A DNA stretch of 64,000 nt, taken from assembly GCF_003574655.1 (NCBI RefSeq), contig NZ_QNUM01000001.1, positions 310,001-374,000 of the forward strand. The letters run 5' to 3'. The translations under genes were made by a program, and so were the position numbers. The stretch's first letter is position 1. Every line of letters begins with the position of its first letter. This DNA comes from Cohaesibacter haloalkalitolerans (GTDB lineage: Bacteria; Pseudomonadota; Alphaproteobacteria; Rhizobiales; Cohaesibacteraceae). This document shows, piece after piece, positions 45,809 to 59,679 of the stretch. The notes beneath the pieces were generated by a model. The model ran no database searches and was not told the origin of the DNA. It saw nothing but the letters and a program-made list of their open reading frames with translations.

Positions 45809-45884
<76 letters not shown>

Positions 45885-45940
45885 TTTTCCCCTGCAAATG
45901 TCAATTCTTTCAATAACTTCATAGACATGCTGTTCTGATA

Positions 45941-45970
45941 GGTACAAACTCTAGTACAATCGGGGTACAT
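45941..45970 (+). repeat. GGTACA-type repeats beside attL (putative integrase arm sites)
   Basis: GGTACAA (45941), AGTACAA (45953) and GGTACAT (45964) are spaced 12 and 11 bp, just before the integrase start. Two more copies lie near attR at 59534 and 59557. Confidence 0.55.
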
Positions 45971-45971
45971 C

Positions 45972-47348
45972 ATGGGTCTTGTCTTGAAGTACGTTCAGAT
46001 ATCCAGCAAGGGGAATTACACTTACCGCAGAGCTGTACCGAAGCACCTGCAATCAATCATCGGTAAGCGAGAATTCAAAAAGTCTTTGGGGCAATCCGAG
46101 AGGGAGGCCCTTAAAGCATATCCGTCTGTGCACAACATGTTCATCAAGCAGGAAGAGCGCGCGGAAATGAAGATTAGGGGTGTTGACCCTGATGGTTCAT
46201 TGCCACGCACTGACTTGATGCAGCATGAGAAGATTATTGAGAGAATAAGAGAGCTGGGCTTCAATCCTTACGAGGTTGAAAGTGGGATTTTTGCTGAACC
46301 AAGGGATTAGTTTCTTCGGGAAATGGAAGCCGAAGCTATCATTGAAAGCTATCCGATAGATCCCGAGACAGGTGATGCGGATGATATGTCTGAAGAAGAT
46401 TTACAGCTTGTCAGAGCATTGAATAACGGAATTCCCTCCAGCCCGGCTCCTACACTATTAGATGCGAAAAGGCTTTATTTGAAATACAAGTCAGCAGCCG
46501 ACGAAATTGATGAGAAAAAGCAAAAGCAGAGAAGTGATCGGGTTGTTGCACATGCAATTGAAGCGCTCGGCCAGGATCGCAAGATCACTGATATCAGAAG
46601 ACTAGATGCGAGGAAGATTGTCGAACATTTCCAGGATGGCATAGGGGTCCAGCCTGCAACAGCCCAAAGATACTTGAATGACCTGAAGGCAATCGTCAAT
46701 TTCGTCATCAAGGAAACAGAGCTAGGCATATCAAGTCCATTCAGCGGCTTATCAATCAAAGTGAGTGGGGCAAGGAAGGACGACAAGCGTTCATTCACCC
46801 GGGATGAACTTGAAGCCATCAATAAGCAGATACAGGACAACGCCAATGACGAGCTTCGGATGATTTGGATCCTCTTGGAGCAGACTGGATGTCGGCTTGG
46901 TGAAATTCGCGGTTTGATGAAGTCTGAAGTCTTTCTGGATGGAGTGGAAATTCCCTTCATCAAGATCCAGTTCAACGAGAATAGGCGGTTGAAGAACTCT
47001 GCTTCTATTCGAAATATCCCATTAGTGAAAAAAGCCGTCTCAGTGATGTTGGAGGCCATAGAGTTGTCGGGCGATAGCCCGCTTGTCTTTCCTCATTACG
47101 GATCCGAAATGCATAAGGATATGGCTTCGGCAGCCTTGCTCAAGCATGTCAGAGCAGTGACAAAGGACAAGGCTGTATCAACACACTCTCTTAGGCACAC
47201 GCTAGTAGACAAACTGAGGCTTGCAGGAGTGCATGAGGAAGTCATCTCCATGATCCTTGGGCACGCCAGCAAGGGAATGACGGAGCGATATGGGGGGCCT
47301 GAGGCGAGATTGAAGCTTATGGCGGAGGCTCTGGGGAAGGCTGCATAG
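45972..47348 (+). pseudogene. Tyrosine recombinase/integrase interrupted by an in-frame TAG
   Basis: Two open segments lie in the same frame: 45972-46310 (112 codons, N-terminal arm-binding part typical of this integrase group) and the rest to 47348. They are separated only by TAG at 46308-46310; the following codons read FLREMEAEA without a gap. Without the stop the protein would be about 458 residues. The catalytic half is complete: Arg in GCRLGEIRGL, Lys in RRLKNSASIRNIPL, HSLRHTL, GHAS and Tyr in TERYGG. A downstream ATG at 46323 could give only a 341-residue catalytic part. Either it is a recent nonsense mutation or the stop is suppressed; the element may be immobile. Confidence 0.88.
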
Positions 47349-47459
47349 ATGTTCAAAGCCTTCAGGATATCTCAGTGTTGGACAACGTAGATACCTGTTC
47401 CATATGCTTTTGACGGAGGCACTTGCTTGAGTTGTAATGTCAGTAGCAAGGCTTGATTT

Positions 47460-47469
47460 GGGGGGGGGG
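47460..47469 (+). repeat. Homopolymeric G10 tract
   Basis: Ten consecutive G bases lie about 80 bp upstream of the predicted start of the secreted Cys-rich protein and inside its upstream-extended frame. Tracts of this type slip during replication and can change expression. Confidence 0.85.
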
Positions 47470-47551
47470 CGTCATGTCGCTTGGAAATTGCAGATACGAA
47501 AAAACGAGAAGATCGTTAGCGATAAAGTGTGCGAGGTCTAGTTCCTCTGGA

Positions 47552-47950
47552 ATGAAAGTGTTCTACTTAATCATAGGACTAGTGCTGTTTCCCACTTGCG
47601 TTTCAGCTCAGAGTTTCTCCTGTACCTTTGGGCAACCTGCCTGTCTCGATTACGGAGACAAGATTTGCTCGCGTTCGGCGAAATGTGTGAGTGATGATGC
47701 CGTGTGCTTTGATAGTTATCAGTGTAACTATGAGGGCTTCACTTGCAAATCCAACCTTACGGAGTGTGCAGACCAATTTGACTCGCTCAAAACTGACTAT
47801 AATGACCTAGTCACGAAATTTAACGATCTTCTCCAGACCTCTCGTAATCTGTCCTCTGATCTGGATGATGCCCGAAACAGGCTGAATAACGTGCGGTCGT
47901 GTTTAAATGGCGCTCAATCTCTAGAAGATGCAAAAGATTGTGTACCATGA
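47552..47950 (+). CDS. Secreted Cys-rich protein with C-terminal coiled coil
   Basis: I do not recognise a named family. The 132-residue protein has a signal peptide (KVFYLIIGLVLFPTCVSA, cleavage near residue 20) and a compact region of about 45 residues with eight Cys. A heptad-like helix (DQFDSLKTDYNDLVTKFNDL onward, residues about 73-108) and two more Cys near the end follow. This suggests a disulfide-stabilised periplasmic or exported protein that oligomerises. The ribosome site of ATG 47552 is weak; the frame extends upstream across the G10 tract to 47453, and ATG 47474 is an alternative start. Confidence 0.62.
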   Translation: MKVFYLIIGLVLFPTCVSAQSFSCTFGQPACLDYGDKICSRSAKCVSDDAVCFDSYQCNYEGFTCKSNLTECADQFDSLKTDYNDLVTKFNDLLQTSRNLSSDLDDARNRLNNVRSCLNGAQSLEDAKDCVP

Positions 47951-48113
47951 GTTTGCAATCGGTCGCTTGAGCTAAAATGCGAAGCAGGTAGTCTGAATGA
48001 GAGGTTGAACCTCTCTTCAAAGCATTGGTTAGATTATGTCAGGTTGTTTAAAGGCATAAACAATTTGAAAAACATCACCTCAGAGTTTACCAATTATGAG
48101 TGCTCAACCCAAA

Positions 48114-48144
48114 AGAAGCCTTACCGATAGAGGGCTTCTGTTTT
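48114..48144 (+). terminator. Terminator before the restriction operon
   Basis: The stem AGAAGCC / GGCTTCT with a 12-base loop is followed by GTTTT, 33 bp before the hsdR start. It would end transcription from the Cys-rich gene. Confidence 0.75.
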
Positions 48145-48176
48145 AGGGGTCACGGGCAGAGCAAAGGGGTGTATTG

Positions 48177-50624
48177 ATGTCCAATAAGACGGATCTAAGC
48201 GAGCGCGACATTTGCTCGAAGTTCATCACGCCTGCAATCGTTGCTGCTGGTTGGGACCTCCAAACACAAGTTCTTGAAGAGAAGACACTCACAGATGGGC
48301 GCGTCATCGTTAGGGGCAAGTTGGTCTCGAGAGGCAAGCGCAAGCGTGCCGATTATGTCTTATATGCAAAACCGAATATCCCTCTTGCAGTCGTCGAAGC
48401 CAAGGATAACAAACACTCCGTTGGTGATGGGATTCAGCAAGCTCTTACCTATGCCGAGATGCTGCGTGTGCCTTTTGCCTTTTCCTCAAATGGCGATGGC
48501 TTTCTTTTCCACGATATGACAGGCCAAGAGGCCGTTCCTGAAATCCTACTGGCTCTTGATCAGTTTCCTTCACCGTCAGATCTACTCGCTCGCTACAATG
48601 CTTGGCGGGGCATTTCGGCTGCAGCTGAGAGCACAACGCTTCAAAACTATTTCGATGATGGGAAGACACCTCGCTACTATCAAATGAATGCGGTGAATGC
48701 TGCGGTCGAGGCGATTGCCAAAGGGCAGAACCGTCTGCTCCTCGTGATGGCAACAGGAACGGGTAAGACCTTCACAGCTTTCCAGATCATATGGCGGCTC
48801 TGGAAGTCCGGTACAAAGAAACGTATCCTGTTTCTTGCGGACCGAAACATTCTGGTTGACCAGACCATGGTGAATGATTTCCGTCCGTTTCAAGGCGCGA
48901 TGGCCAAGCTCTCCACTCAGGCCAAAACAATCGAACGAGCGGATGGATCGGAAGTTGATCTCCCGCTTGCCGTAGATAAAAAGCGTCGCATTAATACGGC
49001 ATTTGAAATCTATCTCGGGCTTTATCAGGCACTCACAGGGCCGCTTGACTCGCAAAAGATATACAAGGAGCTTTCGCCCGATTTCTTCGATCTTGTGATC
49101 ATCGACGAGTGTCATCGTGGGAGCGCGGCTGAAGACTCAGCTTGGCGAGAAATTCTTGAGCATTTTGCAAGTGCAACGCAAATCGGTATGACCGCTACGC
49201 CAAAAGAAACCGAATATGCATCAAACATCCATTACTTCGGCGAACCGATCTATTCCTACACATTGAAACAGGGCATCGAGGATGGCTTTCTTGCGCCCTA
49301 TAAAGTCGTCAAGGTTCACATTGACCGGGATATCGAAGGCTATCGGCCCGAAAAGGGACAGCTTGATCGTGACGGGATTGAAGTCGAGGACCGGATTTAC
49401 AACACCAAGGATTTCGACCGGACACTGGTCATTGATGACCGCACGAAGATTGTTGCGAAACGCGTCACCCAGTTTTTGAAGGAAAGCGGTGACAGGATGC
49501 AGAAGACTATTGTTTTCTGCGTCGATCAGGAACATGCAGGGCGCATGCGACAGGCATTGATCAATGAAAATGCCGACATGGTAAAAAAGGATGCCCGATA
49601 TGTCATGCGTATTACGGGTAATGATAAAGATGGCCTGAATGAACTCGCCAACTTCATAGACCCGGAAGCAGACTACCCCGTCATTGTCACGACCTCCCGC
49701 CTTCTGAGCACCGGCGTTGATGCCCAGACCTGCCGCTTGATCGTGCTTGATCGTGAGGTCGGCTCGATGACAGAATTCAAGCAGATTGTTGGTCGAGGAA
49801 CGCGGGTCCATCAGGATACGGGCAAATTCTATTTCACGCTGATGGACTTCAGAGGAGCCACTAGCCACTTTGCCGATCCCGATTTTGATGGAGAGCCTGT
49901 CCAGATCTATCAACCATCTGGCGATGGCCCGATGGTTCCATCGGACGATGTCCCTGGAGGAGGACAGGGTGGTGAAGAGAGCGATCCACCAACTGTTGGA
50001 AATCCGATTGGACCTGAAGGACAACCTACTGGGCCAGATGGACCATCTGGGGATAAAAAGCCCAAAATCTATGTCGATGGCGTACGTGCAACAATCGTCA
50101 AGGAGCGTGTCGAGTATCTTGATGCGAATGGCAAACTCATCACGGAAAGCCTTAGGGACTTCACCCGAAAGCATCTCAAGCGCCGCTTTGCTTCGCTGGA
50201 TGATTTCCTGCACCGCTGGAATGCGGAAGAGCGGAAGAAAGCCATCCTCGAGGAACTGGCCGATGAAGGACTTGATCTGGCTGTTATTGGCAAGGAACTC
50301 GATAAGGATCTTGATCCCTTTGATCTCATTTGTCATGTCGCGTTTGGCGCCAAGCCTCTCACTCGCAAGGAACGGGCAGAGAATGTCAAGAAACTGGATA
50401 TCTTCGGCCGCTACGGCGAACAGTCCCGATCCGTTCTGGATGCTCTACTGGACAAGTATGCCGACGATGGAGTGATGGATTTCGAGGACGCCAAAATTCT
50501 CAGTATCAATCCCTTCTCCCAGATGGGAACACCGCTTGAACTGATGCGCTCGTTCGGCAATAAAAAAGACTACCAAAGGGCCATGCATGATTTGCAAAGC
50601 GCCCTTTATAATGAAAGTGCCTGA
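48177..50624 (+). CDS. hsdR: Type I restriction enzyme, HsdR subunit (EcoAI-like)
   Basis: HsdR is the motor and nuclease subunit of type I restriction enzymes. The 815-residue protein starts with a PD-(D/E)XK nuclease domain (ADYVLYAKPNIPLAVVEAKD, with EAK at about 74-76). A superfamily 2 helicase follows with Walker A ATGTGKT at about 192-198, DECH at about 310-313, TATPKE, and motif VI as QIVGRGTR. The Gly/Pro-rich linker after the helicase and the C-terminal helical domain fit the EcoAI (IB) group. AAAGGGG precedes ATG 48177. It is the first gene of a tightly packed operon; hsdM begins 5 bp downstream. Confidence 0.95.
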   Translation: MSNKTDLSERDICSKFITPAIVAAGWDLQTQVLEEKTLTDGRVIVRGKLVSRGKRKRADYVLYAKPNIPLAVVEAKDNKHSVGDGIQQALTYAEMLRVPFAFSSNGDGFLFHDMTGQEAVPEILLALDQFPSPSDLLARYNAWRGISAAAESTTLQNYFDDGKTPRYYQMNAVNAAVEAIAKGQNRLLLVMATGTGKTFTAFQIIWRLWKSGTKKRILFLADRNILVDQTMVNDFRPFQGAMAKLSTQAKTIERADGSEVDLPLAVDKKRRINTAFEIYLGLYQALTGPLDSQKIYKELSPDFFDLVIIDECHRGSAAEDSAWREILEHFASATQIGMTATPKETEYASNIHYFGEPIYSYTLKQGIEDGFLAPYKVVKVHIDRDIEGYRPEKGQLDRDGIEVEDRIYNTKDFDRTLVIDDRTKIVAKRVTQFLKESGDRMQKTIVFCVDQEHAGRMRQALINENADMVKKDARYVMRITGNDKDGLNELANFIDPEADYPVIVTTSRLLSTGVDAQTCRLIVLDREVGSMTEFKQIVGRGTRVHQDTGKFYFTLMDFRGATSHFADPDFDGEPVQIYQPSGDGPMVPSDDVPGGGQGGEESDPPTVGNPIGPEGQPTGPDGPSGDKKPKIYVDGVRATIVKERVEYLDANGKLITESLRDFTRKHLKRRFASLDDFLHRWNAEERKKAILEELADEGLDLAVIGKELDKDLDPFDLICHVAFGAKPLTRKERAENVKKLDIFGRYGEQSRSVLDALLDKYADDGVMDFEDAKILSINPFSQMGTPLELMRSFGNKKDYQRAMHDLQSALYNESA

Positions 50625-50629
50625 ATTCC

Positions 50630-52075
50630 ATGTCCATGAGAAATCTCGTAAAATCGCTCCAACAGATCATGTGGAAGGATGTTGGGGTCGACGGCGATGC
50701 CCAGCGCCTGTCCCAGCTCGTCTGGATGTTCTTCCTCAAAATAATTGATGACCAGGATGAAGCGCTGGAGTTCACGCGGGAGGACTATGTCTCGCCGATC
50801 CCGGAGCGCTTCCAATGGCGCAACTGGGCGGCCGATCCGGAAGGAATAACCGGCGATACCCTGCTAAACTTCATCAATGACGAGCTGTTCCCGGCCTTGA
50901 AAGAGTTGCCAGCTTCCAATGCACGTGCCCGTGTCGTGCAATCGGTCTTTGCCGATGCCTACAACTATATGAAGTCCGGTCAGCTGATGCGGCAGGTGAT
51001 CAACAAGATTTCCGAGGTGGATTTCAACTCCCTCACCGAGCGGCAGCATTTTGGCGACATTTACGAGCAGTTGTTGAACGATCTGCAGAACGCGGGCAAT
51101 GCCGGGGAATATTACACGCCCCGCGCCGTCACCTCCTTCATGGTGCAGCAGATTGATCCGCATCCCGGCGAGATCCTCATGGACCCAGCTTGTGGAACGG
51201 GTGGCTTCCTTACCTGCGCCATGCGCCATATGCGTGAGAAATATGTCAAGCACCCCGAAGACGAAACGCTGATGCAGAGCGCCTTGCGGGCCGTTGAAAA
51301 GAAGCCGCTGCCGCATCTGCTCTGCACTACCAACATGTTGCTCAACAACATCGAGGAACCATCCTGGGTGAAGCATGACAACACGCTCGCTCGCCCTCTG
51401 ATCAGTTGGAGCAAGGATGAGCGCGTTGATATTATTCTCACCAACCCGCCTTTTGGCGGCAAGGAAGAAGATGGCATCGAGAACAACTTCCCCCAGTTTA
51501 AGACCCGCGAAACCGCCGATCTGTTTCTGGCGTTGATTATCCGTCTCTTGAAGAAGAACGGGCGGGCAGCTGTCGTCCTGCCCGATGGCTCGCTGTTTGG
51601 TGAGGGTATCAAGACGCGACTGAAAGAGCATCTGCTCAAGGAATGCAATCTGCACACCATCGTCCGGTTGCCAAACTCGGTCTTCAAACCCTATGCCTCT
51701 ATCGGCACCAACCTGCTGTTCTTCGAGAAGGGATCGCCAACCAAAGACATCTGGTATTGGGAGCACCGTGTGCCCGATACCCAGAAGGCCTATTCGATGA
51801 CCAAGCCGATCAGGCTAGAACATCTGGACGACTGCGCCTCATGGTGGGGAGGACCAACCCGTGAGGGCCGCGAGGAAGGCGAGCGGGCCTGGAAGGTCTC
51901 GATCGACGAAATCCGCGAGCGCAACTTCAACCTCGACATCAAGAACCCCCATGTGACGGAGAAAGATCTCGGTGATCCGGAAACCTTGTTGAAGGATCTA
52001 GCCAAAGCTCAAGCCACTATTGATGCCTTGCGCACCGAACTTAAATCCTTCCTGACGGAGGCCTTGTCCCGATGA
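50630..52075 (+). CDS. hsdM: Type I modification methyltransferase, HsdM subunit
   Basis: HsdM is the adenine-N6 methyltransferase of the system. The 481-residue protein has the HsdM N-terminal helical domain, EYYTPRAVTSFM, the SAM-binding motif DPACGTGGF at about 185-193 and the catalytic NPPFGG at about 273-278. All motifs are intact, so methylation should work together with HsdS. Its stop codon overlaps the start of the next gene (ATGA). Confidence 0.96.
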   Translation: MSMRNLVKSLQQIMWKDVGVDGDAQRLSQLVWMFFLKIIDDQDEALEFTREDYVSPIPERFQWRNWAADPEGITGDTLLNFINDELFPALKELPASNARARVVQSVFADAYNYMKSGQLMRQVINKISEVDFNSLTERQHFGDIYEQLLNDLQNAGNAGEYYTPRAVTSFMVQQIDPHPGEILMDPACGTGGFLTCAMRHMREKYVKHPEDETLMQSALRAVEKKPLPHLLCTTNMLLNNIEEPSWVKHDNTLARPLISWSKDERVDIILTNPPFGGKEEDGIENNFPQFKTRETADLFLALIIRLLKKNGRAAVVLPDGSLFGEGIKTRLKEHLLKECNLHTIVRLPNSVFKPYASIGTNLLFFEKGSPTKDIWYWEHRVPDTQKAYSMTKPIRLEHLDDCASWWGGPTREGREEGERAWKVSIDEIRERNFNLDIKNPHVTEKDLGDPETLLKDLAKAQATIDALRTELKSFLTEALSR

Positions 52076-53157
52076 ACACGCACAGCTTTTCCGAATATGC
52101 ATTGGGTCGCCTGCGTGCAGCGAAAGCGGCCATGCAAGAACGCCCGGACACGCATGAAATTGTTGAAGCAAAAGATACAGTCTTGGCACGATATCAGCCT
52201 GCCTTTCAGCCTGGTGCCATAGAAACGATCGATGAAGAAATTTTGCGATCCTTCCTTTACCTTGAGAATAATCGACACTGGTCTGGCCTTAACCGTCAAG
52301 TCAATCGTGTCTGTGCTGATATGACGGCAACGCGGGCCGCATTGGGTCGCCTTGTTGATGAGACTTGCGCGGTCGAGGACAGAATGCAGCCAGTGACCGA
52401 CATCAAGGGCATGGGCAAAGGAATTATCACGGCCATTCTGCACGTCGCATATCCAGATAAATATGGTGTCTGGAATAACACGTCTAACGATGGTCTCACG
52501 GAGCTTGGCCTGTTTCCTCAGGTAGAGCGAGGGGCTAGCTTCGGTCATCGCTATGCGGCTGTGAATGAAGTTTTGTTACAGCTGGCAAGCGCGCTTAATG
52601 TAGATCTTTGGACGCTCGACGCTGTTTGGTGGTTTCTCCATTCACCGGAGAAAGAAGACTCCACAGAAATGGAAACCGAAGTTCCATTCACATCTATTGC
52701 GTCAACATCAACACCAGCCAACAAGACAACACGTTTTGCTCTCGAACGGCATCTGCATGACTATATGTTTGATAACTGGGATACGCTCGACCTTGCCCGG
52801 GAATGGGACATCTTTGTCCGAGATGGTGAGCCTGAAGCGGGATATGAATTCACCACGCCGATCGGGCGGATTGACTTGCTTGCGAGGCACAAGAGCGAAA
52901 GACGGTGGTTGGTCATCGAGTTGAAACGCGAAAAATCCTCAGATGCCGTTGTAGGACAAGTGCTTCGATATATGGGGTGGGTGTCAAAGCATTTATGTGA
53001 TGATGGGGGCACGGCAGAAGGACTGATTGTGGCAACTGAGGGAGATCCGCAACTTCACTATGCGCTCGAAGTTGTGCCTTCTGTTTCATTTAAGTCCTAT
53101 GAGGTTGAATTTCGGCTCAAAGACGGCCCTTCTTTTGCTGAGTTCGCCAAACCATGA
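52072..53157 (+). CDS. NucS-like PD-(D/E)XK nuclease embedded in the type I RM operon
   Basis: The 361-residue protein has two parts. The N-terminal ~190 residues contain a helix-hairpin-helix-like turn (IKGMGKGIITAIL, about 115-127) and NTSNDGLTELGL, of unknown role. The C-terminal ~140 residues are a PD-(D/E)XK nuclease core of the DUF91/NucS C-terminal type: Asp267 in GRIDLLA and Glu283-x-Lys285 in ELKRE, followed by VVGQVLRYMGWV. The start overlaps the hsdM stop and the stop overlaps the hsdS start (ATGA each time), so it is translated together with the modification subunits. The function is not established; an accessory nuclease or DNA-end-processing partner of the RM complex is inference. 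Confidence 0.8.
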   Translation: MNTHSFSEYALGRLRAAKAAMQERPDTHEIVEAKDTVLARYQPAFQPGAIETIDEEILRSFLYLENNRHWSGLNRQVNRVCADMTATRAALGRLVDETCAVEDRMQPVTDIKGMGKGIITAILHVAYPDKYGVWNNTSNDGLTELGLFPQVERGASFGHRYAAVNEVLLQLASALNVDLWTLDAVWWFLHSPEKEDSTEMETEVPFTSIASTSTPANKTTRFALERHLHDYMFDNWDTLDLAREWDIFVRDGEPEAGYEFTTPIGRIDLLARHKSERRWLVIELKREKSSDAVVGQVLRYMGWVSKHLCDDGGTAEGLIVATEGDPQLHYALEVVPSVSFKSYEVEFRLKDGPSFAEFAKP

Positions 53158-54833
53158 ACGCGGAACGACTTTTAAAGCTCTATGACAATATCAGCGAGGC
53201 ACCGGACGCCATCGTGCGTTTGCGGCGGTTCGTGCTGGATCTGGCTGTGCGCGGGAAACTGGTAGAGCAGGACGCGGCAGATGAACCTGCGTCGAAGCTG
53301 CTGGAGCGAATTGAGAAGAGTAAGGCGGGAATTGTCAAAGAGACAAACATGCGGAAGCCCCGTAAGTTTCCTGACATGGATTCGACCGAAATTTGGGCCG
53401 ATCTGCCCACAAGCTGGGCTTGGACCCAGATTTCGAATCTTGGTTTCATCTCTCCACGAAATGAGGCAGGTGATAGCGATGAAGCCTCATTCGTACCTAT
53501 GCCAATGATCTTCGCCGAATATGGAATTGCGAACGAACATCAACCCCGCACATGGGGAGAAATCAAAAAAGGTTATACGCATTTCGCAGAAGGAGATGTT
53601 GGCCTCGCAAAGATCACGCCCTGTTTTGAAAATGGAAAATCGACAGTTTTTCGCAACCTGACTGGAGGATTCGGAAGCGGCACAACCGAACTTCACATTC
53701 TCAGGCCGGTACTCGTTGACCCCGACTATGTAGTGTTGTTTCTAAAGAGCCCGCAATTCATAAGGACAGGCATTCCAAAGATGACCGGAACCGCGGGGCA
53801 AAAGCGTGTATCCAGCGAGTACTTCACAAGCTCGCCGTTCCCGCTCCCCCCACTAGCCGAGCAGCACCGGATCGTCGCCAAGGTCGATGAGCTGATGGGG
53901 CTGTGTGATCGGCTGGAGGAAGCGCGCAAGGAGCGGGAGGAGACGCGCGACAGGCTCACCACGGCCAGCCTTGCTCTCCTGACTGCACCGGGCACGACCA
54001 AAGCGGACTTCCCTGCCCACGCCGCCTTCGCGCTCGATGCCCTACCCGCCCTCACAACCCGCTCAGACCAGATCAAATCCCTCCGCCAAACCATCCTCAA
54101 CCTTGCAGTCAGGGGGAAATTGGTCGAGCAGGACCCTGCGGATGACGCGGTAGAGCTGGATGCTTCAATTTCACATGGCGACGAGCCATTCGCTATTCCA
54201 GCAGGATGGGCATGGCAGCTATTGGGTAGCCTCGCCAACATGATCAATGGGGACCGCAGCAAAAACTATCCGAACCGAAATGAGTATCAGCCGTCCGGCA
54301 TTGCTTGGATAAACACAGGTCACATACAGCCAGACGGAAGGCTCGATCTGCCCGGGATGCACTACATCTCACGCGAAAAATTTGAAACGCTTCGTTCTGG
54401 GAAAATCCAGTCAGGCGACTTAGTGTATTGTCTTCGCGGAGCCACCTTTGGGAAAACAGGCTTCGTTGAGCCATTTACGGAGGGCGCAATTGCCTCATCG
54501 TTGATGATCATCCGCCTCAAACCCGACTTAGTGGATCGTAAATTTGCTTATAATCTCCTTATGTCACCATATGGGAAGGAACAATTGTTGCGGTTCGACA
54601 ATGGAACAGCACAGCCGAACCTATCGGCCGGCAACGTGAGAAAATACCTGATCCCGCTCCCACCCCTCGCCGAACAACGCCGCATCGTGGCCAAGGTCGA
54701 TGCACTGATGGCGCTCTGCGACCAGCTGGAAACGGCTTTGACAAAGACCGACGCCACCCGCACCCGCCTCCTCGAAGCCCTGCTCCACGAGGCGCTGGAG
54801 CCACCATCAAACAACAAGGAGGCTGCGCAATGA
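53154..54833 (+). CDS. hsdS: Type I specificity subunit HsdS
   Basis: HsdS sets the target sequence of the complex. The 559-residue protein is built as two half-repeats. Each has a conserved segment (LAVRGKLVEQD near residues 30 and 325), a target-recognition domain (about 85-235 and 345-505), and a conserved coiled-coil segment starting PLPPLAEQ and containing RIVAKVD (near 240 and 510). The two recognition domains differ, so the target should be bipartite and asymmetric. The longer-than-average length comes from the N-terminal extension and linker of the EcoAI-type. The stop overlaps the next start (ATGA). Confidence 0.94.
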   Translation: MNAERLLKLYDNISEAPDAIVRLRRFVLDLAVRGKLVEQDAADEPASKLLERIEKSKAGIVKETNMRKPRKFPDMDSTEIWADLPTSWAWTQISNLGFISPRNEAGDSDEASFVPMPMIFAEYGIANEHQPRTWGEIKKGYTHFAEGDVGLAKITPCFENGKSTVFRNLTGGFGSGTTELHILRPVLVDPDYVVLFLKSPQFIRTGIPKMTGTAGQKRVSSEYFTSSPFPLPPLAEQHRIVAKVDELMGLCDRLEEARKEREETRDRLTTASLALLTAPGTTKADFPAHAAFALDALPALTTRSDQIKSLRQTILNLAVRGKLVEQDPADDAVELDASISHGDEPFAIPAGWAWQLLGSLANMINGDRSKNYPNRNEYQPSGIAWINTGHIQPDGRLDLPGMHYISREKFETLRSGKIQSGDLVYCLRGATFGKTGFVEPFTEGAIASSLMIIRLKPDLVDRKFAYNLLMSPYGKEQLLRFDNGTAQPNLSAGNVRKYLIPLPPLAEQRRIVAKVDALMALCDQLETALTKTDATRTRLLEALLHEALEPPSNNKEAAQ

Positions 54834-55183
54834 GCTTTGCTGTTGCCGATGCACTACCAATTTTGAGACGCCATTTGGGAGAAACCGTCAATAAGGTCAA
54901 GCAAGGGGCGAGAAAAGGGTTAGAGAATAAGAAAGTGAATGGCTTTCACACAGGATCAGGCAGAGCCTTAGCTCTTGATGTTTATCCTGGCAATCTTGGA
55001 CGTGTGCGGCTTTGGCTAGAGCCTGCGTCTATTCCCTACATTTCTGGAATTCGATCATTTCCCTACAAAACTTGCGATGATCTTAAACGACAGGAACTGA
55101 AAAACCTGCGCGACAACAAGAGCAACTATATCGAAGTTGAAAATAAAGAGGCGCTTGAGCAGCTTTTGAAATGGTACGTATAG
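54830..55183 (+). CDS. Small protein coupled to hsdS, unknown function
   Basis: The 117-residue protein matches nothing I know. It has a basic N-terminal half (VNKVKQGARKGLENKK), a central beta-rich stretch (ALALDVYPGNLGRVRLWLEPA) and a C-terminal charged helix. Its ATG overlaps the hsdS stop, the third such overlap in the operon, so it is surely expressed with the RM genes. It could be an accessory or antirestriction-control protein; I do not assign a function. Confidence 0.7.
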   Translation: MSFAVADALPILRRHLGETVNKVKQGARKGLENKKVNGFHTGSGRALALDVYPGNLGRVRLWLEPASIPYISGIRSFPYKTCDDLKRQELKNLRDNKSNYIEVENKEALEQLLKWYV

Positions 55184-55260
55184 GCAAATGACCTATCGCT
55201 TTTTGCCCATTTTCTATTCCGGTTGAATAGACAAATTCATTGAACTCGGGAGGAATCAAC

Positions 55261-56331
55261 ATGCCAATCCAGCACGCTATATGGACCGTCTCAACGGACC
55301 CGCAGGAAATCCGACAGGGTATACTGCCTTCTGAGCAGATGCTGGAAGACATGATTGTCAAACAGCCTCGTATTCTGTCCTCAGACTGGATGCTGATCGG
55401 GCGCCAGGTTGATACGGGGCTGGGAGGGCGTGTTGATCTGTTGGCGATCACGCCTGATGGATCACTCGTGTTGGTGGAACTGAAGCGCGACAAGACGCCT
55501 CGCGAGGTGGTGGCCCAGGCACTCGACTATGCAGCATGGCTTGAAAAGCTGGAAGCCGAAGATGTTGTAACTGTTTACTCCCGCTTCAGACCTGGACAAA
55601 GCCTTTCGGCCGACTTTCTGGAGAGGTTCGGGCAGGTTCTGGATGAAGACACGCTCAATGAATCCCATCAGATCGTCATCGTCGCAGCCGAGCTGGATTC
55701 AAGCAGTGAGCGTATAGTCTCCTATCTCAATGACCGAGGGCTGGCCATCAACGTTCTCTTCTTCCAGGTCTTTGATCATGGAACCGAGCAGCTTCTCAGC
55801 CGCGCATGGCTCATTGACCCGGGCGAAGTGCAAGTCAAATCGGTCAGCACAGGTCGCAAGGGTGAAAAAGAGCCTTGGAACGGCGAATACTATGTCAGTT
55901 ATGGCGAAGGATTAGATCGTAGTTGGACTGAGGCGGTTAAATTCGGTTTTGTCTGTGGTGGTGGTGGAACATGGTACAGCAATTCACTGCGCATGCTGAG
56001 CGAAGGAGATCGTATCTGGGTTAAGATTCCGGGGCAGGGATTTGTTGGTGTCGGTCGTGTTACAGGAAGTCGCTTATCAGCGTCCGAGTTTAAAATTGAA
56101 GACAAACCCGCACTGGAAGTTTTAACTGCTCGATATCATCGGCAATTCGAAGACGACGCTGAGAACTGTGAATATTTTGTTCCGGTTGAGTGGGAGAAAA
56201 CTGTATCAAGCAGACAAGCTGTTCAGGAGCTAGGTATGTTTGGTAATCAGAACACAGTCTGCAAGCCAGTAACACCGTCTTGGAGGACCACAGTTGATCG
56301 TTTGAAGACGATATTCGGTATTTCAATCTGA
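55261..56331 (+). CDS. PD-(D/E)XK nuclease with PUA/EVE-like C-terminal domain
   Basis: The 356-residue protein has an N-terminal DUF91/NucS-like nuclease core with Asp59 in GRVDLLA and Glu73-x-Lys75 in ELKRD, then a helical region. The C-terminal domain (about 205-320) contains SWTEAVKFGFVCGGGGTWYS and GDRIWVKIPGQGFVGVGRVTG, which looks like a PUA/EVE-like modified-base reader. Such fusions could form modification-dependent restriction enzymes; that is inference. GGGAGG precedes ATG 55261, and the gene lies 77 bp after the RM operon in the same direction. Confidence 0.75.
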   Translation: MPIQHAIWTVSTDPQEIRQGILPSEQMLEDMIVKQPRILSSDWMLIGRQVDTGLGGRVDLLAITPDGSLVLVELKRDKTPREVVAQALDYAAWLEKLEAEDVVTVYSRFRPGQSLSADFLERFGQVLDEDTLNESHQIVIVAAELDSSSERIVSYLNDRGLAINVLFFQVFDHGTEQLLSRAWLIDPGEVQVKSVSTGRKGEKEPWNGEYYVSYGEGLDRSWTEAVKFGFVCGGGGTWYSNSLRMLSEGDRIWVKIPGQGFVGVGRVTGSRLSASEFKIEDKPALEVLTARYHRQFEDDAENCEYFVPVEWEKTVSSRQAVQELGMFGNQNTVCKPVTPSWRTTVDRLKTIFGISI

Positions 56332-56359
56332 TAAGGGACAAAAGCACGGGGTTCGCATT

Positions 56360-56686
56360 GTGGAGATCCAGGGAGAGCCTTGGTTCGTCGCTGCTGATGT
56401 CTGCAAGGCACTGGATCTTCCGTTGGCAGGTGGGGCTGGACGATACCTTCAAAACATTGACAGTGATGAGAAGAAGACACTACGCCGCACCGACTGCAAC
56501 GATCTGTTCGTTGGAGTTCGTGCCCCATCCTACTTGGTCATCTCCGAGTCCTGCCTCTACAAACTGATCCTTCGCTCGGACAAGCCTCAGGCCAAGCAGT
56601 TCCAAGACTGGGTGACCAGGGATGTCCTGCCAGCGATCCGCAAGACCGGATCTTATGTGACTGAGCGATCCCCACAATGGTTTTGA
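56360..56686 (+). pseudogene. Phage antirepressor BRO-N domain remnant
   Basis: The frame encodes a BRO-N domain: GEPWFVAADVCKALDL, then YLQNIDSDEKKTL, LVISESCLYKLILRSDKPQAKQFQDWVTRDVLPAIRKTGSY. The similarity already starts upstream of the GTG at 56360 (codons for VRIVEIQ from about 56351), but no good start exists there and the frame is closed by a stop at 56303-56305. After the BRO-N domain the frame stops, so the usual C-terminal domain is missing. I read it as a truncated phage gene, although a short functional BRO-N protein cannot be excluded. Confidence 0.7.
56667..56677 (+). repeat. 11-bp inverted repeat, left copy, flanking the recombinase
   Basis: GATCCCCACAA occurs here in the 3' end of the BRO-N frame, and inverted (TTGTGGGGATC) at 57454-57464, so the two copies flank the serine recombinase gene. 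Confidence 0.5.
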
Positions 56687-56811
56687 TGAAAAAATGTGTG
56701 AGGGAATACGATAGCCTTCCTCCACCAGTGTCCCCCGTAGGCCCTCTTGCAGTCCTTCAAGAAAGAAGAATGGCGGCATAGTTATCCATCACCACTCCAG
56801 CTGTCTCGATA

Positions 56812-56837
56812 GTCTCAAAAAGTATACTTTCTGAGAC
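56812..56837. promoter_or_regulatory. 26-bp palindrome upstream of the serine recombinase
   Basis: The sequence is a palindrome centred on GTATAC with outer arms GTCTCA/TGAGAC and 12 of 13 matching pairs. GTCTC/GAGAC half-sites also occur at 56803, 56851 and 56863. It is a candidate crossover site or operator for the adjacent recombinase. Confidence 0.6.
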
Positions 56838-56843
56838 TGACTC

Positions 56844-56872
56844 TTGACACGTCTCTTTTCATGTCTCACAAT
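56844..56872 (+). promoter_or_regulatory. Candidate promoter of the serine recombinase
   Basis: A perfect TTGACA is 17 bp from CACAAT. It lies between the palindrome and the gene start and contains GTCTC half-sites in the spacer. Confidence 0.55.
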
Positions 56873-56904
56873 CGTGTTCTCACAACTTTTAAGGAATTAA
56901 GAGA

Positions 56905-57453
56905 ATGGCTGTCGTCGGTTATGCGAGGGTGTCGTCCTTGGGGCAATCCCTGGATGTCCAGATCGAGAAGCTTGATGCAATCGGAGTGGACAAGATCTTC
57001 AAGGAGAAGAGATCTGGTGTTGATACTGCCAGACCTGCTCTCAAGCAGGCATTGGAGTATGTGCGTGAAGGGGACCAGTTTGTTATTTCTCGGATAGATC
57101 GCCTTGCTAGAAGCGCTGAGGATCTGCTCAGGATTGTTAGAGAGCTAGAAGATAAGGGTGTTACGCTCAGGGTTCTAGACCAGCCAATAGACACGCATGA
57201 GGCTACAGGAAGGGCTTTCCTGGGTATGCTGGGCATCTTTGCTGAGTTCGAAAATAGCATCAGAAGAGAACGCCAAATGGACGGGATAGCCAAGGCCAAG
57301 AGCAAAGGAACCAGGTTCGGTAGGAAGGCGCTTTTGACGGAGGATACCGTAAAGGAAATCAAGCTGATGAGGGAGAACGGCAAGACCGTCCCTGAGATTA
57401 TGAAGGCCAAGGGATTGTCTAAGGCGTCCGTCTACAGGGCGCTGTCTGTATAG
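56905..57453 (+). CDS. Serine recombinase (resolvase/invertase family)
   Basis: The 182-residue protein is a small serine recombinase: catalytic-type Ser10 in GYARVSS, the Arg-rich active-site helix (SRIDRLARSAEDLL, about 62-75), the dimerisation helix with GRAFLGMLGIFAEFE, and a C-terminal helix-turn-helix (about 150-178: MRENGKTVPEIMKAKGLSKASVYRAL). The length is like Hin/Gin invertases and Tn3 resolvases. AAGGA and AAGAG precede the ATG. A 26-bp palindrome upstream and an 11-bp inverted repeat on both sides are possible sites of action. Confidence 0.92.
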   Translation: MAVVGYARVSSLGQSLDVQIEKLDAIGVDKIFKEKRSGVDTARPALKQALEYVREGDQFVISRIDRLARSAEDLLRIVRELEDKGVTLRVLDQPIDTHEATGRAFLGMLGIFAEFENSIRRERQMDGIAKAKSKGTRFGRKALLTEDTVKEIKLMRENGKTVPEIMKAKGLSKASVYRALSV

Positions 57454-57464
57454 TTGTGGGGATC
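57454..57464 (-). repeat. 11-bp inverted repeat, right copy
   Basis: TTGTGGGGATC follows the recombinase stop directly and is the inverse of 56667-56677. A third, 9-bp copy GATCCCCAC is at 57524-57532. Confidence 0.5.
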
Positions 57465-57540
57465 TGAATTCTACTTTACGTCTCTGCTTGTAGGACTGTG
57501 TCAGCGCACATAGTGCATCTTTGGATCCCCACGGACCGTC

Positions 57541-58137
57541 TTATTCCGATGCCTTTATGATCCATGGCAACGCTAGACTTGAGAGGCGCTTGTTCAGTTT
57601 CTCCTCAAGGAAAGCAACATACCGAGAGGACGGTTTTTGACGATGGCTGTCTTCCATCAGCATACGGACAACCGTTGTCCAGAAGTGATGGCGGTCCTGA
57701 TAAGTAAAGAGACTTTCTTCCTCGACAAACATGGATGAAAGGAAGGCCCACCACAGACGGTATCCCAGTTCCTTTACACTCTCCTTGGGATAACACTGTT
57801 TGATCCTTAAGACCTGATCACAGGCCGCTTGATAAGCTGCCATTCGAATATGCCCTCTCGCATCCTGAAAGTGGATCGGTCGAGGGTCGAAAGCTATGCT
57901 GCTGATCTCGTCCAGGGCTTGTCTTAGATGAAGATCATTTTCAGTGATAGGTCCTAAGACTTTTCTGAGATACCGCTCTTGTGTCTTTATGAGCAGCTTC
58001 TGAGGCCCTTTGACGGGGGCACCATAGAAGCGATAGAGAGCACGATGATGAGGGCAATAGCGACCTCGTGCCATCTTCCAGCATTCCTTGGCGTTACACT
58101 GCTGGTAGTTAATTTTATCAAACGTATTGTGAGACAT
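57541..58137 (-). CDS. Unknown protein with N-terminal Cys/His motif
   Basis: I do not recognise this 198-residue protein. It has a possible zinc-binding motif near the N-terminus (Cys14, Cys19, Cys28, His30/His31 in the order CNAKEC...CPHH), resembling short zinc fingers of phage HNH-associated or DNA-binding proteins. The rest is mostly helical with many aromatic residues (WWAFL, HHFWTTVVRML). It is convergent with the recombinase and lies between it and the ParB-like gene. Confidence 0.65.
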   Translation of the reverse strand: MSHNTFDKINYQQCNAKECWKMARGRYCPHHRALYRFYGAPVKGPQKLLIKTQERYLRKVLGPITENDLHLRQALDEISSIAFDPRPIHFQDARGHIRMAAYQAACDQVLRIKQCYPKESVKELGYRLWWAFLSSMFVEEESLFTYQDRHHFWTTVVRMLMEDSHRQKPSSRYVAFLEEKLNKRLSSLALPWIIKASE

Positions 58138-58301
58138 GGCGTATGGCTAGAAAGCCTCAGGATAGCCCTGAGTGAGTATGATCAATCTGCGGAGATCATG
58201 AGACCCTCTTGGCGAATTTAGTAAATATTTGGAGTAGCGATAGGTCGTATGCTGGCCACATGTGAAATCCTTATGGTGTGCAATTGCACACTAAATGGGG
58301 G

Positions 58302-59189
58302 TCAGTAAAAGACTTCGCTCTCAGGAATGCCTTGCTCTCTAGCGTCCTCGAGACGCCTTTCAAGTAACAGATCTTCTAAAGCATCTTCAAAAGCTTCACT
58401 CTCGATCAACCGCTTTGGCAGACTTTCGCAATAGTGTAAAAGAGCAAATGCTGTTGCTTCAGGATTGCTGTCTAATTTGGGGCCAAATTCGTGGCGGAAG
58501 CGTTCGGCCCATTCTATGCCTTGTTGTTCGAAGGCGTCAGGTTGCCAGTCAGAAGACTGTTCACCTCTGGCCAAACGGTCTGCCTCAAACCATGACAGAT
58601 TAATTAATTCGGATTTCGAGTAGTTTTGGAGATCCTCTTTATCGGTCATTTCAACTAGTTTTCTGAAAGCCTTCCGCATAGTTTGTATGGTTCTTCTGGA
58701 AACGGACGCAGCTTCTGCGATCCGGGCTGCTTTCAAGCTATTGTCGTCTAGGCAAACAAGGCGCCAAGCGATGTTAGACTTGTCTGTTTGGCGCATCGGA
58801 AGCTTGTCTCTGGAATTGGCTTCAGCTGAGTGACATATCGCTTGAGATAAAGAACCATGGAATGCCTTTACGGGCACGGAGAGTAGTGGCCTTTGGGGAT
58901 TGTCTTCGTTGAATAGTTTGTAGGCTTCGAGGCGGTGGTGTCCGTCAATGACGTACCAGTTTTTCCCGGAATACCAAACTGTCAGCGGGTTAAGTGGCTT
59001 GCCGTCTCGTGCACTGATGGCACTTTTCAGTGTGCGAATATGATGGCCGGAGCATTCGGCCCTGGGTTGGAATATTTCGTACTCAGTTTTAATCGCGTCG
59101 AGGGGCAGATTCTGTGGCTCACTGTTTTCTGGAGGATTTACTCCTGCCTCTGACAAAAGTTGCTTTATGGCTTGATCTCGTTCAATCAT
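58302..59189 (-). CDS. ParB/sulfiredoxin-fold nuclease-like protein
   Basis: The 295-residue protein has the ParB/Srx N-terminal fold with IKTEYEIFQPRAE and the signature VIDGHHRLEAYKLF (about 79-92). A helix-turn-helix-like segment (KAARIAEAASVSRRTIQTMRKAF, about 150-172) and a helical C-terminus follow. No ParA partner is present, so a partition role is unlikely; orphan ParB-like proteins on islands act as regulators, CTPases or nucleases. It is transcribed away from the right end of the island. Confidence 0.82.
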   Translation of the reverse strand: MIERDQAIKQLLSEAGVNPPENSEPQNLPLDAIKTEYEIFQPRAECSGHHIRTLKSAISARDGKPLNPLTVWYSGKNWYVIDGHHRLEAYKLFNEDNPQRPLLSVPVKAFHGSLSQAICHSAEANSRDKLPMRQTDKSNIAWRLVCLDDNSLKAARIAEAASVSRRTIQTMRKAFRKLVEMTDKEDLQNYSKSELINLSWFEADRLARGEQSSDWQPDAFEQQGIEWAERFRHEFGPKLDSNPEATAFALLHYCESLPKRLIESEAFEDALEDLLLERRLEDAREQGIPESEVFY

Positions 59190-59659
59190 GTTACGTGATA
59201 CTGGCTCTTTTAAGTTGACAAAGAAAGCTTTCTTCGAGCAATCACAAAGAATTCAAATGTCAAAAATTCCCTTTGGTTCTTCTATTAATCAATGGACTTT
59301 CTCCGCATATGTGACATTGATATATGATTGCGTATTTGATCATGCTTCTTGTCTTGAAGTTGAATGATTTTTACAGGGAAGAGATGGGTTTTAAATGATT
59401 TTGTTCAATAAGTAGAATGCTGTATTGGGGCCGATAACTTATGTGCTGGGGTGTTGCTATGAAAACTGTCCGTTTCCTCCTAGTGCTTAATGACTTTGAA
59501 TTCTCATCGCACTCCAAAAATTTACCTATTTGGGGTACAACTCATGACCATTTTAAGGTACAATGAGGTCGAAAAACCAACTTGGAACAATGTGTGATAC
59601 ATCATTGTTATTATTGATGTATTTTGAATTGATGGATTGCTCGGGTTTGGTGCCTTAAA
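59190..59659. other. AT-rich right end of the island, no gene
   Basis: This 470-bp stretch is clearly more AT-rich than the rest of the window and holds no open frame of interest. It contains the ParB-like gene's promoter side and, near attR, the GGTACAA repeats. Confidence 0.6.
59534..59563 (+). repeat. GGTACAA repeats beside attR (putative integrase arm sites)
   Basis: GGTACAA at 59534-59540 and 59557-59563 are 23 bp apart and have the same orientation as the three copies near attL. Confidence 0.5.
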
Positions 59660-59679
59660 TCCTATCAGCGGCACCATTT
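59660..59679 (+). repeat. attR core repeat
   Basis: An exact 20-bp copy of 45868-45887. Only this 3' tail of tRNA-Thr is present here, not a full tRNA. Confidence 0.93.

Follow-up and report, generated by a model that had tools for sequence, protein, structure and literature searches.

The window analysed here is a 64,000-nucleotide stretch of the Cohaesibacter haloalkalitolerans genome (contig NZ_QNUM01000001.1, positions 310,001 to 374,000), and the subject is gene X, which lies between hsdM and hsdS of a type I restriction-modification (RM) operon. We found X to be a real, conserved and mobile accessory nuclease gene in an operon of a known kind, carrying a putative reader domain that looks new. 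The reading that we favour, held at slightly less than even confidence, is that X encodes a self-contained modification-dependent (type IV-like) nuclease, plugged in as a cassette at the hsdM/hsdS junction of an EcoAI-type operon. The genes of the operon and the two domains of X are as follows (L and G numbers are our handles for loci and genomes).

48177-50624, plus strand: hsdR, 815 aa, restriction/translocase subunit of the EcoAI/FtnUII type (NF046051; PADLOC REase_I, E = 0; EcoEI_R_C, E 9e-35)
50630-52075, plus strand: hsdM, 481 aa, N6-adenine methylase subunit (N6_Mtase, E 3.7e-71; HsdM_N, E 4.4e-11)
52072-53157, plus strand: gene X, 361 aa, optional cassette at the hsdM/hsdS junction, with an ATGA overlap at either end
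52072-52647, plus strand: N-terminal domain of X, residues 1-192, predicted HhH-GPD glycosylase-like fold and predicted DNA or base reader (AlphaFold2, Foldseek, hhalign)
52738-53157, plus strand: C-terminal domain of X, from about residue 223, PD-(D/E)XK nuclease of the NucS/EndoMS type (NucS_C, PDC-S02, Foldseek)
53154-54833, plus strand: hsdS, 559 aa, specificity subunit with two target-recognition halves (Methylase_S, E 3.2e-21, in two stretches)
54830-55183, plus strand: small gene, 117 aa, in the slot after hsdS (ATGA overlap; homologues in L007 and L008)

The type I gene set was complete, with an HsdR of the family (1149.8 bits against the EcoAI/FtnUII model NF046051, cut-off 550), an HsdM containing N6_Mtase and HsdM_N and an HsdS with two target recognition domains; by these profile matches the operon is a type I RM system of the EcoAI/FtnUII type. 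A gap of 5 bp without overlap separates hsdR from hsdM. Thereafter hsdM, X, hsdS and the small gene follow in a row with 4-nt ATGA overlaps at all three junctions, as a preliminary description made from the letters of the window had stated. The same description had taken the overlaps to make equal synthesis of the products likely. This claim lost ground, because operons of the family without X show the same overlap between hsdM and hsdS (a 4-nt overlap of the hsdS frame with the hsdM stop codon was seen in 14 of 15 readable cases). The 4-nt overlap is thus ordinary in this operon family, and ATGA as a special sign of equal synthesis was rejected. Promoter and terminator scans gave signals no commoner than in shuffled sequence.

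The nuclease domain of X was recognised by several profiles. NucS_C (PF01939) matched with an E-value of 2e-5 and 25.0 bits (cut-off 24), and all 16 family members matched it at E<=1. The PADLOC model PDC-S02, which has no stated cut-off, matched residues 207-350 at 9.3e-44, covering model positions 164-306 of 308. In a Foldseek search with the full X model the EndoMS/NucS structures 5gke and 2vld were retrieved and assigned to the C-terminal part; the table of this search carries no ranges, and matches were placed on the N- or C-terminal part from their known folds. A profile search of the PDB sequences with X gave four matches, the one of interest being NucS 2vld at E 0.024, and the corresponding search with the single X protein gave none. 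The PHROGs search returned nothing better than E 0.047, and no match to X was found in phage records.

The catalytic set D268, E283 and K285, together with Q296, was invariant in 16 of 16 aligned rows; the acidic/acidic/Lys arrangement is, going by the NucS residues, one that we take to be common to NucS and X. The preliminary description had given the active site as Asp267, Glu283 and Lys285. Its Glu and Lys stand; the Asp is residue 268, and position 267 is an Ile. Its central observation was borne out: hsdM and hsdS are translationally coupled through a gene for a second PD-(D/E)XK nuclease, whose N-terminal domain is undescribed. X is a real gene under purifying selection. Its frame was open across both domains in 19 of the 23 loci of the homologue search, and among seven RM-linked copies the pairwise ratio of non-synonymous to synonymous substitution rates was 0.055-0.129 in 15 of 21 pairs, the remaining six, all of which involve the X of the window, being saturated at synonymous sites.

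Two simpler assignments of X were rejected. As a NucS orthologue it scored 27.1 bits against NF003270 (cut-off 216) and 22.7 against NF002876 (cut-off 252), and its N-terminal domain differs; these NCBIfam matches cover residues 258-327 only, and the N-terminal domain proper to NucS was not recognised in X. As a member of YhcG/DUF1016 it reached 21.9 bits with YhcG_C, below the cut-off of 32.5. NucS_C and YhcG_C were the only Pfam matches of the window's X, with no ATPase or HEPN domain found, and among the 16 members one AAA_21 match at E 0.049 and one AAA_22 match at 0.17 were seen. From the structural models, X is predicted to be more than a NucS-like nuclease and to join a glycosylase-like N-terminal domain to a C-terminal domain of the NucS/EndoMS type.

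The N-terminal domain had no Pfam match. An AlphaFold2 model of full-length X, built from 20 aligned sequences, showed two domains with a predicted local distance difference test score (pLDDT) of 82.7 and a predicted template modelling score (pTM) of 0.54, and the linker at residues 193-222 fell below a pLDDT of 50. Modelled alone, the N-terminal domain reached a pLDDT of 90.6 and a pTM of 0.87. Foldseek with the full model retrieved archaeal and Thermotoga 8-oxoguanine glycosylases, 3knt_C at E 5.6e-4 being the sole match at E<=1e-3. With the N-terminal domain alone, HhH-GPD glycosylases made up 49 of the best 50 of 187 matches (E<=10); the template modelling scores were at most 0.50, and 0.42-0.50 for the best group, archaeal OGG2. 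We take the matched glycosylases together to be the HhH-GPD superfamily. Suspicion of an HhH-GPD fold had been raised ahead of the structure search by the GMGKGIITAILHVAYPDKYGVWNN segment of X, and exactly this segment is spanned by the best hhalign match of the domain, to a MutY-like protein. In this weak alignment Asn135 of X stands opposite the Asp of 'VVD' in the MutY-like protein of the own genome, presumably the catalytic Asp. Asn135 was invariant in 20 of 20 rows of the N-domain alignment. By this alignment the catalytic Asp of HhH-GPD enzymes is replaced by Asn in X, and the Lys of the bifunctional enzymes, judged by eye, is not there either. The models thus predict two domains, a first one that likely has a glycosylase-like fold, and a loss of the glycosylase chemistry, activity of that kind being unlikely.

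The same N-terminal domain was found with other partners. It is fused to HNH_2 in L087 (E 2.2e-11) and, in L026 and L085 (both scanned) and likewise L086, to a C-terminal stretch that is HNH-like by eye and has no Pfam match; L088 has a further partner without Pfam match. On a Salinibacter plasmid (L038) it precedes MrcB_N and AAA_5 in a McrB-type protein of 1136 aa, and the gene downstream is annotated 'nuclease domain-containing protein'. It stands alone in L022 and L023, in open reading frames (ORFs) of 217 and 265 aa. A fusion to a repair enzyme was not seen among these homes. We consider the domain a candidate restriction reader because elsewhere it is fused to an HNH nuclease and to a McrB-type motor, and its swapping among HNH, PD-(D/E)XK and McrB-type partners is like that of a modification-dependent restriction sensor. 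Of the roles proposed in the preliminary description, that of a back-up against modified phage DNA has gained the most support, through the predicted glycosylase-like reader fold and these HNH and McrB fusions. Two more plasmid matches of the domain were recorded (L125, L126). The N-domain profile run over 299 genomes matched in the own genome only, the 20 other rows shown all being of the same order.

The search for homologues of X returned 23 loci. Both domains are present in 19 of them; L021 is truncated at the end of its contig, two loci have the N-terminal domain only and one has a partial C-terminal domain. Plasmids added three more copies with at least 80% coverage. The spread was patchy, with matches in 11 of 397 genomes and a full-length match in the own genome only. 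Surroundings were readable for 22 full-length copies, the window included: 10 lie between hsdM and hsdS (window, L002-L008, L035, L017) and 12 elsewhere (L009-L016, L019, L020, L036, L037). The count omits L018 (3.1-kb contig), L021 and L025 (partial match, 148-352); the contexts of L036 and L037 are those of the record annotation, and L020 lies on a 5.4-kb contig. The 12 outside loci are not independent: the same gene lies downstream of X in L009 and L012, and a single context is common to L010, L011 and L013. Neighbours of these orphan copies were sought by tblastn with the window's Hsd proteins, which missed a divergent hsdR in L016. A Pfam scan of 29 chosen neighbours at 10 of the 12 orphan loci showed no N6_Mtase and no Methylase_S; it showed one C-5 cytosine methylase (L015) and the hsdR of L016. 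No N6-methylase-like motif was found in a rough check of non-overlapping ORFs of at least 250 aa in the fetched stretch of ten orphan loci and L018. The orphan hosts include haloarchaeal plasmids, Sphingomonadales and others.

The clade that contains the window's X (support 99/99) had all nine of its copies in the hsdM/hsdS slot. The tenth slot copy is that of Thermoflexus (L017), where HsdM, X, HsdS and HsdR follow in a row and HsdM is 28% identical to that of the window; by this comparison L017 is a separate, second capture of X into an unrelated type I operon. An equal frequency outside RM operons had been named in the preliminary description as a finding that would count against its proposal. 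About such a frequency was found for the family as a whole (12 of 22 outside), and the window's clade departs from it.

Within the operon family X behaves as an optional cassette. HsdM was found at E<=1e-150 in 18 of 394 genomes from the family of the Roseovarius locus, and the hsdM junction was readable in 17 of them: X came next in two (the centre genome and G777, both also among the loci of the homologue search) and was absent in 15, where the hsdS frame directly follows hsdM. With X as the query, 248 genomes of that family gave the whole protein in the centre genome only, beside four N-domain and ten partial C-domain matches. In Paracoccus acridae one operon carries X and another lacks it. 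In an HsdM tree built on 41 rows, nine of them with X, the distribution of X needs six changes, at least five on well-supported branches, and a single HsdM lineage of X-containing operons was rejected (p-AU 9e-24). The tree was made by a quick method from 41 of 50 extracted sequences, nine second copies of the same loci having been dropped; HsdM proteins below 50% identity or with a query span below 380 residues were omitted (including L017, L046-L061, L081, L083 and L109).

The sequences of X and hsdM also diverge in different ways. Their identities correlate weakly (Mantel r 0.44, p 0.04), the GC content at third codon positions was lower in X than in hsdM in five of five loci compared, and in 14 of 15 computable pairs X had the higher synonymous divergence of the two, L002/L035 alone showing the opposite (0.62 for X, 0.72 for hsdM). 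In the hsd flanks, measured over the last 300 nt of hsdM, L005 and L099 were 94% identical, the best of six pairs, and the other five pairs were at 73-93%. The simplest history for these comparisons would be one capture into the slot followed by exchange between operons through recombination in the hsd flanks.

Since there are sister operons without X and X copies outside hsd operons, the methylase/specificity core and X can each do without the other, and X as an obligate type I subunit was rejected. X could still be a conditional subunit, an alternative or additional nuclease on the M2S complex or a trimmer of HsdR-made ends, which we judge quite improbable. In its favour, each of the nine EcoAI-type loci that have X carries it between M and S, flanked by ATGA at either end, and the second capture, in L017, was into the same slot beside an unrelated HsdM. 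The absence of X from 15 of 17 readable sister operons and the repeated changes on the HsdM tree speak against it, as do the excess synonymous divergence of X (saturated in the six pairs with the window) and the weak Mantel correlation, which leave little sign of tight co-evolution of X and HsdM. The distinct complex with HsdM and HsdS that the preliminary description had considered is weakened by the same absence and by the copies outside hsd operons.

Another reading makes X a stand-alone mismatch or lesion nuclease, repair-like or replication-blocking, that hitchhikes with the operon, its slot being kept by hsd-flank recombination and not by function. The resemblance of the C-terminal domain to the mismatch endonuclease EndoMS/NucS and of the N-terminal domain to 8-oxoguanine glycosylases fits this idea, as does the place of orphan X downstream of SbcD and SbcC genes in L010, L011 and L013, and hsd flanks as similar as those of L005 and L099 would allow recombination. 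Two captures into the same slot argue against it, however, and so do the fusions of the N-terminal domain, which are to restriction-type effectors (HNH_2, MrcB_N/AAA_5) and in no case seen to a repair enzyme, and a patchy spread such as defence genes have. We regard it as unlikely.

Accessory effectors in type I operons are already known, among them PrrC, ShdA (PMC11090510) and proteins of the restriction endonuclease fold (PMC3506569). X might similarly be a guard that the Hsd complex silences and that a phage inhibitor or unmodified DNA frees, whereupon it degrades phage or host DNA. PrrC, encoded within a type I operon and kept silent by EcoPrrI (PMC3506569, PMC12707154), is a precedent, and nucleases of the restriction endonuclease fold in type I operons have been proposed as such toxins (PMC3506569); X is coupled to both hsdM and hsdS, and its clade is found in that slot alone (9 of 9). 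But 12 of the 22 readable full-length loci have no hsdM or hsdS neighbour that could restrain X, the window's X lacks an ATPase or HEPN match, and a reader domain would be superfluous for a simple guard. This guard role, too, has in our view a low probability.

The favoured reading of X as a modification-dependent cassette nuclease would work as follows. The N-terminal domain, a glycosylase fold without the catalytic Asp, would flip or probe bases and bind DNA that carries a phage-type modification or a lesion; the C-terminal domain of the NucS/EndoMS type, held on a flexible linker, would then cut that DNA. The type I complex would kill DNA without host methylation, and X would kill DNA that escapes the type I enzyme through its modified bases. 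The ATGA overlaps would co-express both arms, and X would have to tolerate the N6-methyl groups set by its own HsdM. Three parts of this reading are inferred: a ligand of modified DNA, its subsequent cleavage and the complementarity of the two arms. The layout is type IV-like in having a separate nuclease and a first domain in the model, for which a sensor role is presumed. Modified-base readers of the EVE/ASCH kind beside type I RM genes have been predicted to target modified DNA (PMC7641849), BrxU, a type IV enzyme encoded in a defence island, acts independently of the accompanying BREX system (PMC12707154), and complementary protection by BREX and a type IV enzyme has been reported (PMC8565348). 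A wider proposal, in our judgement somewhat less likely than not, is that a catalytically retired HhH-GPD fold is an unrecognised plug-in modification sensor for NucS-type, HNH and McrB effectors, and that the operon here is a hybrid of type I and type IV in one transcript, which could restrict unmodified as well as modified DNA.

Several observations weigh against the favoured reading. At a pTM of 0.54, the full model leaves it uncertain how the two domains are arranged towards each other. Foldseek scores of the N-terminal domain were modest, with a best E-value of 6.2e-3, none at E<=1e-3 and a large root-mean-square deviation. The Pfam model HhH-GPD (PF00730) gave no match at E<=1 to any of 16 X members, and hhalign of the N-domain alignment against the three PF00730 proteins of the own genome was weak (E 0.019, 0.041 and 0.31, with probabilities of 2.5, 1.3 and 0.2%). 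Mismatches or damage would be just as possible as targets of a glycosylase-like fold. Six of the seven relatives of the C-terminal domain that have other N-termini lie outside hsd operons (in Paenarthrobacter, Sinorhizobium, Hydrogenophaga, Pseudomonas, Burkholderia and Cupriavidus), the one in Hydrogenophaga preceding a gene annotated 'DNA methyltransferase'; the seventh, on an Acinetobacter plasmid (L040, the one read of seven Acinetobacter plasmid records), sits in a type I operon after hsdS. Finally, the single slot of the clade could reflect a physical link to HsdM and HsdS, or homologous recombination in the hsd flanks.

X shares features with several known systems and differs from each. 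Like the EVE/ASCH readers (PMC7641849), it would place a putative modified-base reader near hsdRMS and is proposed to extend restriction to modified DNA; its reader is predicted to be HhH-GPD-like, carries its own PD-(D/E)XK nuclease and sits between hsdM and hsdS. Sensor and nuclease in one chain are also found in SRA-HNH TagI, EVE-HNH VcaM4I, CMoRE and McrBC (PMC6212794, PMC7897488, PMC12923530), and the N-terminal domain of X also occurs in fusions with HNH and McrB-type partners; compared with these type IV enzymes X has another predicted sensor fold, a NucS-type nuclease and a type I operon location, and its modification dependence is putative. PrrC in ecoprrI (PMC12707154, PMC3506569) is likewise an accessory effector encoded within a type I operon, but it combines an anticodon nuclease with an ABC NTPase domain, whereas X is a predicted DNase without ATPase match, and the ABC NTPase plus HEPN RNase that mark the PrrC type were not found in X. 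The extra nuclease gene ShdA (Shield, RmuC-like) of Pseudomonas type I operons (PMC11090510) belongs to another nuclease family and has a coiled coil and a transmembrane helix. NucS/EndoMS (2vld, 5gke) has the same type of nuclease domain, but the N-terminal part of X is glycosylase-like in the model and its NucS equivalog scores fall far below the cut-offs. The glycosylases Brig1 and Brig3 (PMC11078745, PMC13160076) offer glycosylase-type recognition of modified phage bases in defence; X differs in its predicted fold, its substituted catalytic Asp and its nuclease. The preliminary description had called the operon its best candidate for an undescribed system. In searches limited to open-licence PMC papers we recognised no description of a reader-nuclease combination like that of X, and to that extent the claim is fair; accessory nucleases in type I operons as such are not new.

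The orphan copies of X have varied neighbours. In L009 and L012 a gene for 625-629 aa without Pfam match (L009:5486-7363, L012:9062-10951) follows with a 4-nt overlap, and the two genes are a possible two-gene system; in L009 an ABC-3C component (CTD6) lies upstream. The common context of Novosphingobium L010, L011 and L013 has SbcD, SbcC and HATPase-domain genes upstream (Pfam in L010, HATPase also in L013). In L014 Cas4 and Cas1 genes lie about 4.5 kb from X, with repeat-rich, CRISPR-array-like sequence between, and in L016 the hsdR-type gene is about 4.5 kb away, with an integrase between.

Other junctions of the operon family vary too. The hsdR/hsdM junction is a variable slot that holds FRG (L002, L035), DUF5677 (L005), PDDEXK_4 (L008) or further genes (L003, L004, L006) and is empty in the window and in L007. 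In L070 (6470-7846) and L073 (6422-7888) the hsdM/hsdS slot holds other genes, the first annotated 'RNA-binding domain-containing protein' and touching or overlapping hsdM by a few bases. A second variable slot follows hsdS. The small gene of the window lies there, and its homologues (48-50%) come directly after hsdS in L007 and L008; it had no Pfam, PADLOC, NCBIfam or PHROG match and no match in the plasmid search. Within hsdS a 79-nt direct repeat was found at 53839 and 54652 (81% identity).

The operon rides on an integrative island of about 13.8 kb (45865-59679) in the 3' end of a tRNA-Thr gene, and a second gene with a NucS_C domain lies downstream of the operon.

45809-45884: tRNA-Thr (CGT)
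45865-45887, plus strand: left 23-nt repeat, tRNA-Thr 3' end, island boundary (empty site in G302)
45972-47348, plus strand: tyrosine integrase region, ORFs 45972-46310 and 46323-47348 (DUF6538; Phage_integrase, E 1.2e-17)
55261-56331, plus strand, from the first ATG: second NucS_C-domain gene (NucS_C, E 6e-7; PADLOC PDC-S11, E 1.6e-151)
59657-59679, plus strand: right copy of the 23-nt repeat, 96% identity, island boundary

In G302, of the same genus, the left and right flanks (each 94%) are contiguous and overlap in 20 nt of the repeat, forming an empty site; in G316, the only other relative in which the left flank matched over its full length, the match on the right side extends over no more than 37 nt. 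A stop separates the two integrase ORFs, the DUF6538 part and the catalytic part. The PDC-S11 gene, absent from the preliminary description, begins 77 bp downstream of the small gene. In L005 a relative of this gene is separated from the upstream hsdS by one gene; on a Pseudomonas plasmid (L062) one follows hsdS directly, in two overlapping pieces; and in L016 one lies near X on the opposite strand. In a search of 61 related genomes the gene was found in the own genome only. It may be an additional accessory defence gene belonging to this run. The island also contains a short Bro-N protein (56360-56686) and a serine resolvase (56905-57453), and near its right end a 295-aa protein on the minus strand (58302-59189) with a weak GmrSD_N match (19 bits, below the cut-off of 33.2).

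Phages evade type I enzymes by altering their bases, and type IV enzymes answer by reading the alterations. The pairs with and without X (L005/L099, L035/L101) present the same type I chassis in both states. If the favoured reading of X is true, the presence of both arms in one operon would be a compact answer to such escape, and the N-terminal domain would represent a new class of sensor for modified bases.

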